Shown: positions 24,460 through 47,043 of the stretch, piece after piece
How positions within the stretch are numbered: position 1 is the stretch's first letter
Layout of the letters: each line of letters opens with the position of its first letter
Origin: Gemmatimonadota bacterium
Lineage (GTDB): Bacteria > Gemmatimonadota > Gemmatimonadetes > Longimicrobiales > Gaopeijiaceae
Assembly (NCBI GenBank): GCA_030428885.1
Contig: JAUIEJ010000003.1
Coordinates: 62,001-126,000, forward strand
DNA: 64,000 nt
Direction: 5' to 3'
The notes under the pieces: model-generated
The model's database searches: none
What the model saw: the letters and a program-made list of their open reading frames with translations, nothing else
Told to the model about the DNA's origin: nothing
Program-made: the position numbers and the translations under genes

Positions 24460-26262
24460 GTGCGCCTCGACCACATCCGCAACTTCTGCATCGTCGCCCA
24501 CATCGACCACGGCAAGTCGACCCTGGCCGATCGGCTCCTGGAGCAGACCGCCACCCTGGATCGTCGTCAGATGCGGGAGCAGGTCCTCGACTCCAACGAG
24601 TTGGAGCGTGAGCGGGGGATCACCATCAAGCTCCATGCGGTGCGCATGGACTACCGGGCCGCCGACGGCGAGGCGTACGAGTTCAACCTCATCGATACGC
24701 CGGGGCACGTGGACTTCACCTACGAGGTGTCCCGCTCCCTGGCGGCGTGCGAAGGGGCGATCCTCGTGGTGGACGCCACCCAGGGCATCCAGGCCCAGAC
24801 CCTCTCCAATCTCTTCCTGGCCCTGGACGCCGACCTGGAGATCATCCCGGTCCTGAACAAGATCGACCTTCCCGGGGCCGAGCCCGAGAAGCGCCGGGAC
24901 GAGGTGTGCGAACTCCTGGGCGTCGACCCCGACACGGTGATCCTGGCCTCGGCCAAGGAAGGCATCGGCATCGACGAGATCCTGGAGGCCGTGGTGGCCC
25001 GGGTGCCTCCCCCCGAAGGGCGGGCCGACGCGCCCCTCCGGGCCCTGATCTTCGATTCGTACTACGACAAGTATCTGGGCGCGGTCCCCTCGGTACGGGT
25101 GGTCGACGGCACGCTCCGGCCCGGACAGACCATCTCCTTCGGTGCCGTGGACGCCGAGTACGAGGTCACCGAGGTGGGGTACATGCGCCTGAAGCGCGTG
25201 CCCCAGAAGGAACTGGGTCCGGGCGAGGTCGGCTATGCCGTGGCCGCCATCAAGGAGGTGTCCCATACACGCCCCGGGGACACCATCCTGGACGTCGACG
25301 ACCGGGCCACCGAACTCCTGCCGGGCTATCAGGAAGTCCGGCCCATGGTCTTCGCCGGCCTCTATCCCACCGATACCGACGACTACGAGGAACTCCGGGA
25401 CGCCCTGGAGCGCCTGAAGCTCAACGACGCCTCCCTCCACTTCGAGCCCGAGACCTCCGCCGCCCTGGGCTTCGGCTTCCGCTGCGGATTCCTGGGACTC
25501 CTCCACATGGAGATCGTCCAGGAGCGCCTGGACCGGGAGTTCGGCGTCGACCTCATCACCACGGTCCCCAACGTGGAGTACCACGTGGACCTCACCGACG
25601 GGGAGTCGGTGGAGATCGAGAGCCCCACGGCCATGCCCGAGCGGGGCCGCATCGAGCGGATCGCCGAGCCCATGGTCCGGGTGCGCATCATGGTCCCGTC
25701 GGAGTACATCGGGAACGTCCAGAAGCTGGCCCACGACCGGCGGGGCATCTTCAAGGGCATGCAGTACCTGGACCGGGAGCGGGTGGAGCTGGACTACGAG
25801 CTGCCCCTGGCCGAGATCGTCCTGGACTTCTACGACAAGCTGAAGAGCGGCACCCGGGGGTACGCGGCCATGGACTACGAGTTCATGGAGTACCGGGCCG
25901 CCGACCTGGTGAAGCTCGACGTGCTGGTCAACGGCGATCCCGTGGACGCCTTCAGCGTCATCATCCACCGGGACAAGGCCTACGAGCACGGGCGCGATCT
26001 CACCCGGCGGCTCAAGGAGCTGATTCCCCGGCAGCAGTTCGAGGTGGCGCTCCAGGCGGCCATCGGGCAGAAGATCATCGCCCGGGAATCGGTGAAGGCG
26101 CTCCGGAAGAACGTGACGGCGAAGTGCTACGGCGGCGACATCAGCCGAAAGCGCAAGCTCCTGGAGAAGCAGAAGGAAGGCAAGAAGCGCATGAAGCAGG
26201 TGGGCTCGGTGGAGATCCCCCAGGAGGCCTTCCTGGCGGTCCTGAGCCTCGGCGAGGGCTGA
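24460..26262 (+). CDS. lepA: Elongation factor 4 (LepA)
   Basis: 600 residues, the usual length. It is a translational GTPase that binds the ribosome and is linked to initiation and back-translocation. G1 is AHIDHGKST at about 14-22, the switch II region is DTPGHVDF, and NKID is the G4 motif. The LepA-specific [14 protein letters not shown] and the C-terminal [22 protein letters not shown] are both present. GTG 24460 fits the family N-terminus ([18 protein letters not shown]). It heads a tight operon, followed 9 bp later by the heptosyltransferase gene. Confidence 0.97.
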
Positions 26263-26271
26263 CCCCGGGCC

Positions 26272-27321
26272 GTGGCGCAACGGGGCCGCGGGCCGGCGAT
26301 CCTCGTGGTGGGACCGGCGTGGGTCGGGGACATGGTCATGTGCCAGAGCCTCTTCATGACCCTCCGCCGGCGGTGGCCCGACGCCCGCATCGACGTGTTG
26401 GCGCCGGACTGGACCCGGCCCCTCCTGGAGCGGATGCCCGAGGTGGATCGAGCCGTGGCCCTTCCCGTGGGTCACGGTCGCCTTCGACCCCTGGTGCAAC
26501 TCCGCACCGCCGCGCGGGTCCGGTCGGAGCGGTACGACCGGGCCGTGGTGACTCGTCGCTCCTTCAAGGCGGCCCTGGTTCCGTTCCTGGCCCGGATCCC
26601 GGTGCGCACCGGAATCCTGGGGGAGTCCCGCCACCTCCTCATCAACGACGTCCGGGCGGTGAACGGCGACTCCCACCCCTTCGCGGTGGAGCGCCTGGCG
26701 GTGCTGGGCATGGAGCCCGGCGCCCACCCCGGCCTGGACGGTGTGCCCTGGCCCCGCCTCGCCGCCGACCCGGACGCCGGGACGGCGCTGGAGGTTCGCC
26801 TGGAACTCGAGGGCCCGGGATCGGTGGTGGGGTTGGCCCCGGGGGCGGCCTTCGGGCCCGCCAAGCGGTGGCCCCAGGAGCGGTGGGAGGCCCTGGCCGC
26901 ACGGTTGGGCGCCCAGGGCCGGCGCGTCTGGGTGTTCGGCGCCCAGGGGGAAGCCGAGGAGGGCGCGGCCATCGCCGCCGCCGGGGGCGCGGGCGCCCGG
27001 AGCCTGTGCGGGCGCACGAGCCTCGGGGACGTGGTGGATCTCATGGCCCGGTGCACCCACGTGGTGACCAACGACTCGGGGCTGATGCACGTGGCCGCGG
27101 CGTCGGGCCCCCGGGTCGTGGCGCTCTTCGGCTCCACGTCCCCCCGCAACACGCCGCCGCTGGACGCCCGGGCCCGGGTGATCTGGCACGAGCTGGAATG
27201 CAGTCCCTGCTATGCACGGACGTGCCCTCTGGGCCATCTTCGGTGCCTCACGGGCATCGGGGTGGACGAGGTGATGGACGAACTGCGGGACGACGGGGGC
27301 GACCCCGAGGAGACGTCATGA
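26272..27321 (+). CDS. waaF: Glycosyltransferase family 9, heptosyltransferase II-like
   Basis: 349 residues with the WaaF/WaaC GT-B layout. The N-terminal VVGPAWVGDMVMCQSLFMTL is the acceptor-side motif. The C-terminal nucleotide-sugar half has LAPGAAFGPAKRWPQERW and the THVVTNDSGLMHVAAASG signature. It should add L-glycero-D-manno-heptose from the ADP-sugar to the LPS inner core at the cytoplasmic face of the inner membrane. The cysteine cluster near the end (ELECSPCYARTCPLGHLRC) is typical of WaaF-type enzymes. The GTG at 26272 is chosen for proximity to lepA. The stop overlaps the ROK gene as ATGA. Confidence 0.87.
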   Translation: MAQRGRGPAILVVGPAWVGDMVMCQSLFMTLRRRWPDARIDVLAPDWTRPLLERMPEVDRAVALPVGHGRLRPLVQLRTAARVRSERYDRAVVTRRSFKAALVPFLARIPVRTGILGESRHLLINDVRAVNGDSHPFAVERLAVLGMEPGAHPGLDGVPWPRLAADPDAGTALEVRLELEGPGSVVGLAPGAAFGPAKRWPQERWEALAARLGAQGRRVWVFGAQGEAEEGAAIAAAGGAGARSLCGRTSLGDVVDLMARCTHVVTNDSGLMHVAAASGPRVVALFGSTSPRNTPPLDARARVIWHELECSPCYARTCPLGHLRCLTGIGVDEVMDELRDDGGDPEETS

Positions 27322-28319
27322 GCGCCGAACAGTGGATCGTCGGGGTGGACATCGGCGGCACCAACCTGGTGGTGGGACTCGTCCCCGCTGCCGGGGGCGA
27401 GCCCCGGGGTCTCCGGATCCGGGCCACGGCGGCCGAGCGGGGGCCCGAGGCGGTGGTGACCGACATCGTCCGCATGGCGCGGGAGTCGGTGCGGGAGACG
27501 GGCGAGGAGATGGGGGGGGCGCCCCTCGACGTGGTGGGACTGGGGGCGGGATGCCCCGGCCCCATCGATCGAGCCGCCGGCGTGGTGATCGAAAGCCCCA
27601 ACCTCCAGTGGCGGGAATTCCCCCTACGGGATCGGATCGAGGCCCTGGTGGACTGGCCCGTCACCGTGGACAACGACGCCAACTGCGCCACCTACGGCGA
27701 GTGGTGGCAGGGGGCCGGGCGTGGTGTGTCGTCGCTGGTGGGGGTGACCATCGGCACGGGCATCGGCGGCGGATACATCCTGGACGGGCGCCTGGTCCAC
27801 GGGGCCAGCGACGGGGCGGGGGAGGTGGGCCACACCACGGTCAACGTGTCGGGGCGTCGGTGCGCCTGCGGCAACGACGGCTGCCTCGAGGCCTACGCCT
27901 CGGGTCCGGCCATCGCCAACCGGGCCCGGGAGGGCCTGGCGGCCGGGGGCGACTCCCTCCTGACCCGCCTGGTGGACGGCGAGCTGTCGCGCATCACGGC
28001 GGCCACGGTCTACGAGGCCGTGGTGAGCGGCGACCCCTACGCCACCGAGGTCCTCACCGAGGCGGCGAAATTCCTGGGGGCCGGCATCGCCAATCTCGTG
28101 AACATCCTCAACCCCGAGGCCGTGGTGATCATGGGGGGGGTGACCCGGGCCGGCGAGCACCTCTTCGTGCCGCTGAAGGCCGAGGTGCGGCGCCGCGCCT
28201 TCCGGGCCCTGGTGGAAGCCTGCCGGATCCTCCCGGCCCGACTGCCCGAGACGGCGGGCGTCGTGGGGGCCGCCGGGATCCTGGCCGCGCATCTTTCGGG
28301 GGACCCCTCCACGACATGA
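27318..28319 (+). CDS. ROK-family sugar kinase (glucokinase-like)
   Basis: 333 residues. N-terminal VGVDIGGTNLVVGLV is the ATP phosphate-binding loop, the catalytic aspartate lies in VDNDANCATYGEWW, and the ROK zinc site is GHTTVN..CACGNDGCLE. The most likely reaction is ATP-dependent phosphorylation of glucose or a related hexose or hexosamine. There is no DNA-binding domain, so it is a kinase rather than a ROK repressor. The ATG overlaps the heptosyltransferase stop by 4 bp, and its own stop overlaps the PfkB gene as ATGA. The sugar specificity cannot be read. Confidence 0.9.
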   Translation: MSAEQWIVGVDIGGTNLVVGLVPAAGGEPRGLRIRATAAERGPEAVVTDIVRMARESVRETGEEMGGAPLDVVGLGAGCPGPIDRAAGVVIESPNLQWREFPLRDRIEALVDWPVTVDNDANCATYGEWWQGAGRGVSSLVGVTIGTGIGGGYILDGRLVHGASDGAGEVGHTTVNVSGRRCACGNDGCLEAYASGPAIANRAREGLAAGGDSLLTRLVDGELSRITAATVYEAVVSGDPYATEVLTEAAKFLGAGIANLVNILNPEAVVIMGGVTRAGEHLFVPLKAEVRRRAFRALVEACRILPARLPETAGVVGAAGILAAHLSGDPSTT

Positions 28320-29314
28320 CCACCGCCCGGCGCAAACGGCTCGGGGTGGTGGGGACCCTCGTCTGGGACACCATCCACGCCCGGGAGGGACGAACCGAGC
28401 CCGTGGAGGAGTGGGGAGGCATCGCCTACGCTCTCGGCTCCCTGTCGGCGGCCCTCCCCGACGACTGGGAGGTGGTGCCCCTGGTGAAGGTGGGGGCCGA
28501 CCTCTCGGAGCGGGCCCTCCGGTTCCTCCGGGAGCTGCCCCGGGTGGACGTGGACAGCGGCGTGCTGTCGGTGCCCGAACCCAACAACCGGGTGGAGCTC
28601 CGCTACGTGGATCGGGACCGGCGCACCGAACACCTGAGCGGGGGCGTTCCCCCCTGGCTGTGGGCCGAGCTGGCCCCGGCCGTGCGCACCTGCGACGCAC
28701 TCTACGTCAATTTCATCTCCGGATTCGAGATGACCCTGGACACGGCCCGCTCCCTGCGCGCCGGCTTCCAGGGGCCCACCTACGCCGATCTCCACTCCCT
28801 CTTCATGGGGGTGGAGAAGACCGGTCTGCGGGTGCCCCAGGAGCTTCCGTCGTGGGGGGCCTGGCTGCGGTGCTTCGACGCGGTGCAGATGAACGAGGTG
28901 GAGTTCGACCTCCTGGGGCGGGCGTGGGGCGATTCGTGGCGGCTGGCCGCCGACGTCGTGGGGCCCGAGTTGAAGCTCATCGCCGTGACCCTCGCCGATC
29001 GGGGGGCCGCCTGGGTGGCGGGTCCCGGGTTCGACCCCGATCCCTTCCGGTGGCCCGTCACCCGCCACGCCGTGGGGGTGGCCGGGGCGAGCCGCAGCGG
29101 GCGGGCGGCGCCGGCCCACGGGACCCTCGACGGGGATCCCACCGGTTGCGGAGACGTGTGGGGGGCCGCTTTCTTCGCTCGGCTCCTGGCCGGCGACGGA
29201 CTGGACGGTGCGCTGGTCGCCGCCAACCGTTTCGCCGGCCGCAACGTGCTCCACCGGGGCGCCCGGGGCCTCCACCATCACCTGTTGGGCCGCCTGTCCG
29301 AGAGGGAGCGTTGA
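28316..29314 (+). CDS. PfkB-family carbohydrate/nucleoside kinase
   Basis: 332 residues, ribokinase fold. N-terminal RLGVVGTLVWDTIH and EEWGGIAYALGSLSAAL are the substrate-side motifs. The C-terminal PfkB signature is DGDPTGCGDVWGAAFFARLL, with catalytic Asp in GCGD, where most members have GAGD. The substrate is unclear; the family covers ribose, adenosine, fructose-type and heptose kinases. Heptose is tempting beside waaF, but nothing in the sequence proves it. The start overlaps the ROK gene and the stop overlaps the TTG start of the STAS-GHKL gene, so translation of the set is chained. Confidence 0.85.
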   Translation: MTTARRKRLGVVGTLVWDTIHAREGRTEPVEEWGGIAYALGSLSAALPDDWEVVPLVKVGADLSERALRFLRELPRVDVDSGVLSVPEPNNRVELRYVDRDRRTEHLSGGVPPWLWAELAPAVRTCDALYVNFISGFEMTLDTARSLRAGFQGPTYADLHSLFMGVEKTGLRVPQELPSWGAWLRCFDAVQMNEVEFDLLGRAWGDSWRLAADVVGPELKLIAVTLADRGAAWVAGPGFDPDPFRWPVTRHAVGVAGASRSGRAAPAHGTLDGDPTGCGDVWGAAFFARLLAGDGLDGALVAANRFAGRNVLHRGARGLHHHLLGRLSERER

Positions 29315-30201
29315 ACGTCCTCGCCCTGCCGTCGAGTCTGGATCACCGGAGCGTCGACGACGTCCTCGATGCCGCCGCCCGCGCCCCCGACGGGCGCATC
29401 CTCTTCGACGCCCGCCACGTGCGCTGGGTCGATCCGGCGGGCATGCTGGGGCTGCTCTCCGGCGGCCGGTTCCTTCGGGACCGGAACGGGGTGGCCCCCC
29501 GCCTCCAGCTCCCGGAGCATGCCGACGTCCCGGGCTACATGGCCCGCATGGGGTTCTTCCGGGCGGCCGAGGAGGTGTTCGAACTCGACCAGCGACCTCC
29601 GCGCCGGGCCAAGGGCGACACCGACGTGCTCCTGGAGGTGACGCCCATCACCACCAACAGCGACGTCCACGAGGTGGTGGACCGGGTGCAGCGTTCGGCC
29701 GGGACGATCCTCACCCGGACGCTCCACTACCCCATGACGGCCGTGGTCCAGTTCTCGGTCATTCTCTCGGAGGTCTGCCAGAACATCCTGGAGCACGCCG
29801 AGGCGCCGGGGTGGGTGAGTGCCCAGGCCTACAACTGGCAGAAGCGCCTGGGGCGCCACGTGCTCATCGTGGCGGTGTCCGACCTGGGGCGGGGCTTTCG
29901 GGGCTCCCTGGCCGACGAGCACTCGGCTCGCTTCGGCGATCGCTGGGGCGACGCCACGGCGCTGGAGGCCGCCTTCATCCACGGCCTCACCCGGTTCCCC
30001 GACACGGGCCGCGGGCAGGGCATCCAGCAGATGCGGAAGCAGGTCCGGAAGTGGAACGGGGCCATCGCCATCCGCAGCGGCACGGCGCGCATCGCCGACG
30101 TCCCCGACTGGGACGACTCGCCGCCGCTCCGGGAGGGCATGGCTTCGTTCCCCGGCGCCCACATCCACCTGTTGCTGCCCGGGATGGACGCCCATGGCTG
30201 A
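29311..30201 (+). CDS. STAS-like plus GHKL (HATPase) fusion, anti-sigma-kinase type
   Basis: 296 residues. The first ~95 are STAS-like (RILFDARHVRWVDPAGMLGLL), the fold of anti-sigma-factor antagonists. After a linker, residues about 120-290 form a GHKL ATPase with N-box SEVCQNILEHA (153-163), G1 box DLGRGF (191-196) and G2 box GRGQGI (233-238). No membrane segment and no phospho-acceptor histidine domain are seen, so an RsbW/SpoIIAB-like serine kinase is more likely than a sensor kinase. The TTG start at 29311 overlaps the PfkB stop by 4 bp. The next gene, a STAS protein, overlaps by 8 bp and is the obvious partner. No sigma factor lies nearby; the target is unknown. Confidence 0.75.
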   Translation: MNVLALPSSLDHRSVDDVLDAAARAPDGRILFDARHVRWVDPAGMLGLLSGGRFLRDRNGVAPRLQLPEHADVPGYMARMGFFRAAEEVFELDQRPPRRAKGDTDVLLEVTPITTNSDVHEVVDRVQRSAGTILTRTLHYPMTAVVQFSVILSEVCQNILEHAEAPGWVSAQAYNWQKRLGRHVLIVAVSDLGRGFRGSLADEHSARFGDRWGDATALEAAFIHGLTRFPDTGRGQGIQQMRKQVRKWNGAIAIRSGTARIADVPDWDDSPPLREGMASFPGAHIHLLLPGMDAHG

Positions 30202-30772
30202 CCGGGCTCCCGACCCCATCCGCATCGACGTCGGCGCGCTGGTCCAGCGCTCGGTGGCGTCGCTCTACGCCCACCTCGTGACCCGTCCCACGGGGCGCGC
30301 CGTCCGCCTGGCCATCGAGACCCAGCTCGCCGAGGCCGGCGAACCCACCGTCTCCCTCATCGACCTCACGGAAGTCACGATCCTGGACTTCTCCTGCGCC
30401 GACGAGGTGGTGGCCAAGCTCCTGCAGCGCTTCCTGGGCGCCGATCGCCCCCGGAACGCCTTCTTCGTCTTCCGGGGCGTCCAGGTGCGCCATCGGGACC
30501 CCATGGAGGCGGTCCTGGAGCGCCAATCCCTCGTGGCCGTGGCCCAGCGGGAGGATGGAGGGTTCGAGCTGCTCGGGCCCGCCACGCCGGCGGAGCGAGA
30601 CGCCTGGCACCGGGTGGAGCGGGCCGGCCGGATCCCCTCCGACGGGCGGGACCACCATTTCGGCGACCCGAATCTCTCCAGCGGCCTCGCCGGCATTCTC
30701 TCCCGCCGCCTGGTGTTCGAGGCGCCCGGCAGCGGTGATCTCGTGGCCTTGAGCCGCCTCGTCCACGGCTGA
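30194..30772 (+). CDS. STAS-like protein, partner of the GHKL protein
   Basis: 192 residues. The core (about 50-110) has a STAS pattern: VSLIDLTEVTILDFSCADEV, where the serine after the second strand is at the position phosphorylated in SpoIIAA-like antagonists. The N-terminal ~45 residues (DVGALVQRSVASLYAHLVTR) and the C-terminal ~70 are additions that I do not recognise; DUF4325-type STAS-like proteins are a possible relative. It overlaps the STAS-GHKL gene by 8 bp and is followed 13 bp later by a PLP enzyme gene. It is likely the phosphorylatable switch of a partner-switching pair. Confidence 0.65.
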   Translation: MADRAPDPIRIDVGALVQRSVASLYAHLVTRPTGRAVRLAIETQLAEAGEPTVSLIDLTEVTILDFSCADEVVAKLLQRFLGADRPRNAFFVFRGVQVRHRDPMEAVLERQSLVAVAQREDGGFELLGPATPAERDAWHRVERAGRIPSDGRDHHFGDPNLSSGLAGILSRRLVFEAPGSGDLVALSRLVHG

Positions 30773-30785
30773 ACCGGAGTCCCCC

Positions 30786-31949
30786 ATGACCCTGTCCCCC
30801 GACGCCGGCCTCTCCACACTGGGCATCCACGGCGGAGCCGAACCGACCCGCCCCGGAGACCCGGTGGTGCCCCCCCTCGTCCAGAGCGCCACCTTCCACG
30901 GCGGCCGCCGGGACGACGCCCTGCTGTACTCCCGGTACGGCAACAACCCCCTCCAACGGCTGGTGGGGCGGAAGGTGGCGGCGCTGGAGGGCACCGAGGC
31001 GGGGCTGGTGCTGGGAAGCGGGATGGGGGCCATATCGGCCACCCTCCTGGCCCTCACCGAGGCCGGCGACCACATCGTCGCGTCGGAACACCTCTACGGG
31101 GCCACCCGGGAACTCCTGGAGGTGGAGCTCCCCCGCCGGGGCGTGACCACCACCTTCGTGGACCCGGATCGGTCCGGCGCCTGGGCCGACGCCGCCGAGG
31201 AGCGGACCCGGGTGTTCTACCTGGAGGCCCCCACCAACCCCACGCTCCGGGTGGTGGACCCCCGGGCCGTGGTGGCCCAGGCCCGGGGACGGGACGTCAC
31301 CGTGGTCATGGACGCCACCTTCGCCACTCCGGTGAACCTGCGGCCCGCGGCCCTGGGCGTGGACGTGGTGATCCATTCGGCCACCAAGTACATGGGCGGC
31401 CACTCCGACGTCATCGCCGGCGTGGTGGCGGGGTCGGAGGCCACGGTGGACGCGGTCACCACCATGATGAAGCGGTACGGGGCCGCCGCCGATCCCCACA
31501 TGGTCTGGCTCCTGGACCGGGGGCTGCGCACCCTCGACGTCCGGGTGCGACGGCACAACACCAACGCCCTGGCCGTGGCCCGCTTCCTGGAGGGGCGGCC
31601 CGAGGTGGCTCGGGTGCTCTATCCCGGCCTCGAGTCCCACCCCGACCACGCCCTCGCCGCCGACCTCCTCCTGGGGGCCGGGGGCATGGTGTCGTTCGTG
31701 GTGAACGGGGGCGGCGAGGCGGCCGACCGGGTCATGGACGGCCTGGAATTGATCCACGTCGCCCCGTCGCTGGGGGGGGTGGAGAGCCTGGTGAGCCAGC
31801 CCCGCTACACCTCCCATCGGGCCATGGACGAAGCCCGGCGCACCGCCCTGGGGATTCCCGACGGATTCCTGCGGCTCTCGGTGGGCATCGAGGATCCCCA
31901 CGATCTGACCGCCGACCTGGGTCGGGCGCTGGAACGCGCCTTCGACTAG
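30786..31949 (+). CDS. Cys/Met-metabolism PLP enzyme (cystathionine gamma-synthase/lyase or methionine gamma-lyase type)
   Basis: 387 residues. The fold-type-I transsulfuration family is clear: YSRYGNNPLQRLVGRKVAALEG at the N-terminus, the cofactor-stacking tyrosine in EHLYGATREL, DATFATP and the PLP lysine K201 in HSATKYMGGHSD. The reaction could be cystathionine gamma-synthase, gamma-lyase, O-acetylhomoserine sulfhydrylase or methionine gamma-lyase; motifs do not decide. A second paralogue lies at 53.9-55.0 kb. CCGGAG sits before the ATG. It is the last gene of the lepA operon by spacing (13 bp). Confidence 0.85.
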   Translation: MTLSPDAGLSTLGIHGGAEPTRPGDPVVPPLVQSATFHGGRRDDALLYSRYGNNPLQRLVGRKVAALEGTEAGLVLGSGMGAISATLLALTEAGDHIVASEHLYGATRELLEVELPRRGVTTTFVDPDRSGAWADAAEERTRVFYLEAPTNPTLRVVDPRAVVAQARGRDVTVVMDATFATPVNLRPAALGVDVVIHSATKYMGGHSDVIAGVVAGSEATVDAVTTMMKRYGAAADPHMVWLLDRGLRTLDVRVRRHNTNALAVARFLEGRPEVARVLYPGLESHPDHALAADLLLGAGGMVSFVVNGGGEAADRVMDGLELIHVAPSLGGVESLVSQPRYTSHRAMDEARRTALGIPDGFLRLSVGIEDPHDLTADLGRALERAFD

Positions 31950-45487: not shown

Positions 45488-46162
45488 TCATGGCGCCAGA
45501 TGGGCCAGGGTGTCCTTCAATTCGTGCCGCGCACGATGGATGTAGGTCTTCACCGTACCCAGGGGGAGTTCCAGCGTGTCGGCGATCTCGTCGTAGCTGT
45601 ATCCCTCCACGTGGCGGAGGAGAATCACCGTGCGGTACTCGGGGCGGAGGCGGCCGATGGCCTCCTCGATTTCGGCCCCGAGCTCGCGGTTCTCCACGAA
45701 GGCGTCGGGTCGCTCGTGGGAGTCCTCCAGCACCAGGCTCGTGCGGGCCTCCTCCTGGGCGTTGGACGCGTGGGGCGACCCGTGGATCGAGATCGTGTCG
45801 AGTTTCCGCTTGCGCAGATAGTCGATGGTATGGTTGTTGGCGATCTTCAGGATCCAGTTCGAGAACTTGAACGAGGGGTTGTACGATCCGATGGCGTTGA
45901 ACGCCCGGATGAACGACTCCTGCGCCAGATCCTCGGCCAGGGAGCGGTCCCGAACCATGCGGAACACGAGGGAGAACACCGGTCGCTCGTAGCGCGACAG
46001 GAGTTCCCGGAATGCGCCCTCACGACCCTGGCTCGCCTGGGCGGCGAGGGCACGGTCTTCGAGGGAGGAGTAGTCGCTGGCGGACAGGTCGGCCGCTCCC
46101 CGTGCGGTGGTCGTCGCGTGGGACAGGGACCCGTCGGCCGTGGTCGCGGATGGGTTGGCCAT
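45488..46162 (-). CDS. ECF (RpoE-type) RNA polymerase sigma factor
   Basis: 224 residues. Region 2 runs through FRELLSRYERPVFSLVFRMV, AEDLAQESFIRAFNAI and FSNWILKIANNHTIDYLRKRK. Region 4 has RTVILLRHVEGYSYDEIADTLELPLGTVKTYIHRARHELK. A linker of about 45 acidic residues separates them. ATG 46162 gives a 35-residue Ser/Thr/Ala N-terminal arm; the longer frame to 46291 is unlikely because it crosses the divergent ubiE promoter region. It heads the operon with its anti-sigma factor, the membrane scaffold and the DUF4097 protein, and is likely autoregulated. A 7-bp inverted repeat lies 30 bp upstream. Confidence 0.92.
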   Translation of the reverse strand: MANPSATTADGSLSHATTTARGAADLSASDYSSLEDRALAAQASQGREGAFRELLSRYERPVFSLVFRMVRDRSLAEDLAQESFIRAFNAIGSYNPSFKFSNWILKIANNHTIDYLRKRKLDTISIHGSPHASNAQEEARTSLVLEDSHERPDAFVENRELGAEIEEAIGRLRPEYRTVILLRHVEGYSYDEIADTLELPLGTVKTYIHRARHELKDTLAHLAP

Positions 46163-46191
46163 GGCATGGGGTCCTACGGAGGGATTCCCTC

Positions 46192-46218
46192 CCGGGTTTC
46201 GCCCGGTGTGGAACCCGG
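46192..46218. promoter_or_regulatory. Inverted repeat in the sigma/ubiE divergent region
   Basis: CCGGGTT (46192-46198) and AACCCGG (46212-46218) are perfectly inverted across 13 bp. The right arm overlaps the putative ubiE -35, so a bound protein could affect both divergent genes. Confidence 0.35.
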
Positions 46219-46237
46219 TCTTCCGTTCGGGTAGGAT
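46209..46237 (+). promoter_or_regulatory. Putative promoter of ubiE
   Basis: TGGAAC (46209-46214) and TAGGAT (46232-46237) are 17 bp apart. The GGAAC core also resembles the -35 of ECF sigma promoters, but no matching ECF -10 is evident. The leader to the ATG at 46291 would be about 47 nt. Confidence 0.35.
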
Positions 46238-46290
46238 GGAAGCTTCCCGAACGCCGTACCTCGAAGGTATTTCCCCCGTCCCCCACTGCA

Positions 46291-47043
46291 ATGCCCACCA
46301 TTCCCGACGCGGTCCCGTCGCAGGGAGCGGACCGCGAGAAGCAGGTCCGGACGATCTTCTCCGATATCGCGCCGCGGTACGACCTGCTGAACCACGTCCT
46401 GTCCATGAACGTCGACCGGGCGTGGCGGCGCAGGGCCGTCGACACCCTCGGCTGGACGGACCGTCCCGGGGGCACCTACCTGGACGCCTGCGCCGGCACC
46501 TTCGACCTCGGTCTGGAACTCGCTCGGCGGGGCGCGTTCCAGGGCCGGATCGTGGCGTCGGACTTCGCCCGGCCCATGCTGGTGGCGGGACGGGACAAGC
46601 TCGAGGGCGCGGCGGTGGCCCCCGTCTGCGGCGATACCCTGAGGCTTCCGTTCCCCGACGCGTCGTTCGACGGCGCCACGGTGGGGTTCGGGGTGCGCAA
46701 CCTCTCCGACCTCGACGCCGGGTTCCGGGAATTCCATCGGGTCCTGAAGCCCGGCGCCCGCCTGGTCGTCCTGGAGTTCACGGTGCCGCCCAACCCCGTG
46801 GTGCGGGCCGGATACATGCTCTACTTCACCAGGATCCTGCCCGTGGTGGGTCGGATCGTCTCGGGGCACCCGTGGGCCTACACCTACCTGCCCGAATCGG
46901 TGAAGGAGTTTCCGGGGCCCGACGAACTCGCGGCGAAGCTGGAGTCCGCCGGGTTCGCCGAGTCGGGCTACGCGCTGGTCACTTTCGGGATCGCGGCGAT
47001 CCACTGGGCCCGGAAGGAAGGCCCTCGGGGTCCAGGATCGTGA
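46291..47043 (+). CDS. ubiE: Demethylmenaquinone/ubiquinone C-methyltransferase
   Basis: 250 residues. A SAM-dependent class I methyltransferase with the UbiE signatures YDLLNHVLSMNVDRAWRRRAV and the motif I region YLDACAGTFDLGLELA, where the usual GTGD is replaced by AGTFD. VGFGVRNLSDLDAGFREFHRVLKPGARLVVLEF is also present. In a Gemmatimonadota-like cell it would methylate demethylmenaquinone, since menaquinone is the usual quinone of that phylum (inference). It is expressed from its own promoter opposite the sigma gene. Its last 65 bp overlap the 3' end of the convergent M16 gene. Confidence 0.92.
   Translation: MPTIPDAVPSQGADREKQVRTIFSDIAPRYDLLNHVLSMNVDRAWRRRAVDTLGWTDRPGGTYLDACAGTFDLGLELARRGAFQGRIVASDFARPMLVAGRDKLEGAAVAPVCGDTLRLPFPDASFDGATVGFGVRNLSDLDAGFREFHRVLKPGARLVVLEFTVPPNPVVRAGYMLYFTRILPVVGRIVSGHPWAYTYLPESVKEFPGPDELAAKLESAGFAESGYALVTFGIAAIHWARKEGPRGPGS

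Follow-up and report, generated by a model that had tools for sequence, protein, structure and literature searches.

A CapK/CapS-like pair of kinase and winged-helix protein genes as a probable core switch in a class of Gemmatimonadota

The question raised by this locus is what can be controlled by two overlapping genes, one for a STAS-GHKL protein and one for a second STAS protein, that directly follow two sugar-kinase genes in a 64,000-nucleotide stretch of Gemmatimonadota DNA (hereafter, the window). In a preliminary description, the arrangement was read as a partner-switching layout with no sigma factor nearby, and a link to sugar or LPS pathways was inferred. The evidence presented below indicates that the pair is probably a kinase/DNA-binding-protein switch of the type named CapK/CapS by Chambers et al. 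(EMBO J 2026; PMC13373217), kept as a core gene pair in its class and not as a mobile immune regulator.

The genes concerned are arranged head to tail, all on the + strand, in the order lepA (24460-26262), GT9, ROK kinase (27318-28319), PfkB-type kinase (28316-29314), gene 1 (29311-30201, 296 amino acids), gene 2 (30194-30772, 192 amino acids, ATG start) and a Cys/Met-metabolism PLP enzyme (30786-31949), the last separated from gene 2 by a gap of 13 bp. Overlaps of 4 bp were noted between GT9 and ROK, between ROK and PfkB and between PfkB and gene 1. The overlap of the two sugar-kinase genes, the 8-bp overlap of gene 1 with gene 2 and the TTG start of gene 1 (29311) inside the TGA of PfkB (29312-29314), all described previously, were read directly in the sequence. 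This TTG start is supported by most orthologues, in which a start codon occupies the corresponding position of the alignment. The PfkB assignment is weak for the window gene itself (E=1e-4) but clear in orthologues. A promoter and terminator scan near the pair was negative. By eye, a recurring promoter-like pair, TTGA...GTTAGNTT, was seen upstream of lepA (window 24460) in several relatives.

Pfam matches of gene 1 to STAS_2 (E=1e-4) and HATPase_c (E=1.5e-4) were both below the curated cut-offs; among 30 orthologues, STAS_2 was matched by 22 and HATPase_c by all 30. Gene 2 alone gave no Pfam match. AlphaFold2 models of each protein, a check proposed at the outset, were built from orthologue alignments and were confident (pLDDT 91.3 for gene 1 and 92.5 for gene 2). 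The model of gene 1 contained both a STAS and a GHKL fold, in agreement with the fusion described initially. Foldseek alone ranked folds low or misleadingly, and the ranking was settled with VIA alignments. Thus ranked, the first 94 residues of gene 1 (29311-29592) resembled anti-sigma antagonists (TM1442, 1vc1; Z 11.1, 1.8 Å, 88 residues) and the kinase half (residues 103-294, 29617-30192) was closest to SpoIIAB (1til; Z 14.2, 2.6 Å, 134 residues), with RsbW (6m36) at Z 11.5. A PADLOC match of gene 1 residues 76-264 to DrmA (E=1.4e-14) was rejected as a sign of DISARM membership, as it spanned only model positions 77-248, or about 170 of 1750; the DrmA model may contain a similar N-terminal domain.

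The STAS domain of gene 2 (residues 27-128, 30272-30577), which contains the motifs LVTRxTGR and DFSCADE, aligned with RsbS (6jhk; Z 8.3, 3.1 Å, 103 residues). Gene 2 had been correctly described as a separate STAS protein with a key serine, but the description as STAS-only missed a C-terminal domain (residues 132-191, 30587-30766) that was modelled as three helices and two short strands in winged-helix order and that in some orthologues matched TrmB, AsnC-type and MarR models. This winged helix points to DNA as the output of the pair.

Residue conservation was counted over 124 distinct gene 1 and 120 distinct gene 2 sequences. The kinase motifs were located as claimed: an N-box, SEVCQN..EHA (E154-x3-N158-x3-H162, 29770-29796), that was invariant (124/124), an invariant G1 box, D191-x-G-x-G195 (29881-29895), and a G2 box, G233-R-G-Q-G237 (R234 to G237, 30010-30021). 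Invariant positions of gene 1 were E154, N158, D191, G193, G195, G235 and G237, and those of gene 2 were T30, R31, G34, D65, S67, A69, D70 and E71. The codon of Ser67, the predicted phospho-acceptor, occupies 30392-30394 and encoded serine in 120/120 sequences. By contrast, position 43 in the STAS domain of the kinase itself, which by eye aligns with the phosphoserine of SpoIIAA, was serine in only 6 of 124 orthologues, which makes Ser67 of the partner protein the likely substrate as judged from sequence. Analysis of inter-protein coupling in 116 pairs was set aside as dominated by shared descent, a single position (S72) appearing coupled to many.

Gene 1 was found in 89 of 97 close relatives and gene 2 in 86 of 94. 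The presence of gene 1 in 280 of 298 genomes sampled from the phylum argues against chance. All of these finds may be set against 292 genomes of its own class (280/292, approximately 96%, mostly in single copy), and gene 1 was absent from all six genomes of another class and from both genomes of family f5. Among 120 loci compared, gene 2 followed gene 1 within 2 kb at 117 of the 117 that were testable, though these loci came partly from identical or close genomes and linkage counts are therefore not independent. The two genes of family f3 are separated by approximately 0.5-1.4 kb (L074-L077, L206 and L208), and the insert, as read in L074-L077, includes a gene for a cyclophilin-type prolyl isomerase. 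Two other observations concern the distribution of these genes. Diverged second GHKL paralogues were noted in genus g41 (L210:6935-7756 and L211:6937-7773), with no adjoining STAS-winged-helix partner seen and, in L210, with Asp in place of the N-box Glu. The Gemmatimonadota pair and its synteny were also present in MAGs with Gammaproteobacteria titles (L114, L123, L124, L128 and L130), which are probably mislabelled bins.

Homology of the kinase to CapK was evident from an hhalign comparison of gene 1 with the CapK profile (E=1.1e-17, 271 columns) that covered both the STAS and GHKL domains. The match of gene 2 to CapS by sequence alone was weak (direct E=0.006), with two intermediates at 1e-6 and 4e-5. 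In these alignments, Ser67 of gene 2 corresponds to CapS S54 and N158 of gene 1 to CapK N218, which is required for phosphorylation of CapS (PMC13373217). A conserved patch of gene 1 (Y174, W176, R179 and R182) maps to the strand in which, by alignment, CapK has its ssDNA-groove lysines.

With tblastn, distant relatives of gene 1 were detected on Nostoc, Citrobacter and Cytobacillus plasmids and, with the Citrobacter protein as query, on plasmids of Enterobacter, Vibrio, Acinetobacter and Sphingobium; a tblastn search of plasmids with gene 2 returned no matches. At the plasmid loci examined, a STAS-winged-helix gene was next to the kinase gene. The pair was followed by a multiubiquitin/ThiF operon (Bub, ubiquitin-like) in L238, L241 and L244, by ThiF/DUF6527 in L239 and by a SAVED/nucleotidyltransferase CBASS operon in L240. 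Overall, the CapK/CapS-like pairs of L239, L240, L242 and L243 adjoin ThiF/DUF6527, CBASS or unknown genes, with an ISAba1 insertion downstream of that of L243. Repeated TTAA-type palindromes were present in the gap that follows the second gene in L238, L240, L241 and L242, with 18 half-sites (at most one mismatch) as opposed to a mean of 0.36 in shuffled gaps, a descriptive comparison since these gaps were also the source of the motif. L241 shares the residue numbering of the published Enterobacter pair (W68, N218, K237 and K239; S54 and N145) and carries the identical published 36-bp operator, indicating that L241 is either that CapK/CapS pair or one nearly identical to it. PDB entries 9z71 and 9z72, two distinct sequences, strongly matched the second gene of Citrobacter. 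In a tree of kinase domains, class versions and plasmid CapK fell on separate sides of branches; the direction of recruitment was not read from this tree, in which long branches blur the order of groups.

The published experiments suggest how the window pair may work. In the CapK/CapS system, which responds to DNA damage by switching on immune genes, ssDNA-activated CapK phosphorylates CapS at S54, the CapS dimer separates and repression is lifted (PMC13373217). By analogy, the STAS-GHKL protein of the window would act as a serine kinase, binding the partner protein through its STAS domain and using ATP to phosphorylate that domain at Ser67, and gene 2 would be a dimeric STAS-winged-helix DNA-binding protein whose phosphorylation would break the dimer, free the DNA and shift expression of target genes. 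The partner-switching-like chemistry proposed initially is supported to this extent.

An arrangement like VapKSC, in which the kinase would act on Ser67 but the STAS protein would control an enzyme or toxin and the winged helix would serve as a protein-interaction module, is unlikely. It would account for the low conservation of the winged helix, the least conserved domain of gene 2 (entropy 2.41 bits versus 1.53 for the STAS core) and one that is cut down in a few orthologues (e.g., L079, 143 amino acids), and it agrees with the lack of an N-terminal HTH in gene 1 as in VapK. However, VapS has no winged helix (PMC13373217), the C-terminus of gene 2 is full length in most orthologues (at least 170 amino acids in 117 of 120 distinct sequences) and no VapC/PIN gene was present among the neighbours identified at pair loci.

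Control of the local operon, with the pair acting either on the lepA-ROK-PfkB-CysMet genes or on sugar-kinase activity, is distinctly improbable. The genes overlap and their order is conserved, PfkB being upstream of the pair in 106 of 118 testable loci and ROK in 91 of 114; the PLP enzyme gene was a common downstream neighbour (86/111) and lepA, which lies outside the switch, a conserved one no more than 9 kb upstream (106/108). Nevertheless, the pair was kept without PfkB in 12 loci (e.g., L070, L096, L097, L102 and L209) and likewise survives without ROK or CysMet, and inspection by eye showed no apparent inverted-repeat operator either ahead of lepA or beyond the pair in the window or relatives. 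The search of Gemmatimonadota genomes proposed in the preliminary description thus confirmed linkage of the pair but not that the kinases always travel with it, and the constant unit is the pair, linked without exception while the sugar kinases vary. A role in a sugar or LPS pathway is rated low for the same reason, since the sugar kinases are dispensable and the heptosyltransferase-like GT9 is only a sporadic neighbour.

The absence of a linked sigma factor was borne out: no sigma domain was found among window proteins scanned between 12306 and 44477, and the nearest sigma-factor gene among those scanned (45488-46291) is unlinked. SpoIIE-type phosphatases are present in the genome of the window, and most genomes have a PP2C phosphatase. 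Five pair-bearing genomes from two genera, however, gave no matches to the SpoIIE and PP2C_2 families; these genomes are approximately 2 Mb in size and 92-94% complete, and they retain other STAS ORFs. The pair therefore probably does not depend on a canonical cycle with reset by a PP2C phosphatase, although incomplete genomes or other phosphatases could matter. Retention of the pair in these genomes is consistent with the main text of the CapK/CapS paper, in which no cognate phosphatase is named (PMC13373217). Elsewhere in the genome of the window, a STAS/HATPase_c_2/SpoIIE cluster (G000:C5:121034-123368), apart from the pair, looks like a canonical RsbV-RsbW-RsbU locus. Classical partner switching, with gene 1 as anti-sigma factor, gene 2 as antagonist and the sigma factor and PP2C phosphatase encoded elsewhere, would fit the fold match of gene 1 to SpoIIAB and the SpoIIE-type phosphatases of the genome but is very improbable given that separate canonical-looking locus, the five genomes just described, the lack of a winged helix in RsbV and SpoIIAA and the lack of a linked sigma gene.

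Returning to the CapK/CapS-type switch, the initial suggestion that the system may be undescribed applies in part. The kind has been known since 2026, whereas the Gemmatimonadota version is absent from the main text of that paper (PMC13373217), and what is new, within the reach of our searches, is the placement of the pair as a core, non-immune system together with its altered input features. The fixed chromosomal position of the pair, near-universal in the class and away from immune genes, suggests a housekeeping use of the switch. The wider proposal, that a CapK/CapS-type switch serves one class as a near-universal core regulator with another input and a chromosomal regulon of its own, and may be ancestral to the immune versions, stands at about even odds in our judgement. 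With a core design that has invariant catalytic residues, it becomes possible to test whether immune regulators arose by recruitment of housekeeping ones or vice versa, and in a phylum that has received little study the pair is a candidate controller of a regulon.

Like SpoIIAB/SpoIIAA and RsbW/RsbV, the window pair combines a GHKL serine-kinase fold with a STAS acceptor serine; it differs in the extra STAS domain of the kinase, the winged helix of the substrate, the lack of a linked sigma factor and its retention in genomes where neither SpoIIE nor PP2C_2 was detected. VapK (PMC13373217) resembles gene 1 as a STAS-GHKL kinase without an N-terminal HTH and likewise has a STAS partner with a conserved Ser/Thr, but that partner, VapS, pairs with a VapC toxin, and gene 2 has the winged helix that VapS lacks. 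DUF4325, a STAS-like domain found beside or fused to GHKL ATPases, contains a serine (in SSSFADE) that aligns with that of gene 2 (SCADE) but is shorter and has no winged helix; DUF4325 (PF14213) weakly matched 2 of 30 gene 2 orthologues (best E=0.0086), and hhalign of gene 2 against DUF4325-containing fusions gave 4e-5. Single-protein STAS-GHKL-DUF4325 fusions, whose domain order mirrors that of the window gene pair, occur alongside the core pair in genus g11 of this class (L212:7604-8860 and L213:7350-8603), and a similar fusion is carried by a Nostoc plasmid (L235:1914-3158). Viral contigs contained no relative of the fused paralogue. The closest likeness is to CapK/CapS, defined as an accessory switch that responds to DNA damage and adjoins immune operons (PMC13373217), in that adjacent genes encode a STAS-GHKL kinase and then a STAS-winged-helix protein, with the N-box Asn and STAS Ser conserved in both. 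The N-terminal HTH of CapK, dispensable in the published assay (PMC13373217), is missing from gene 1, which begins with its STAS domain; the ssDNA-stacking Trp68 of CapK is replaced by a gap or Leu at the aligned site, and the DNA-binding Asn145 of CapS is not conserved in gene 2. In CapK/CapS, a palindromic TTAA operator lies between capS and an immune output operon, although 95 of 443 published pairs lack a known or predicted immune operon (PMC13373217), whereas no TTAA operator was apparent in the 13-bp gap of the window or in relatives and no immune operon lay downstream of the pair at the window or linkage loci. CapK/CapS is an accessory system, while the window pair is core, chromosomal and class-wide.
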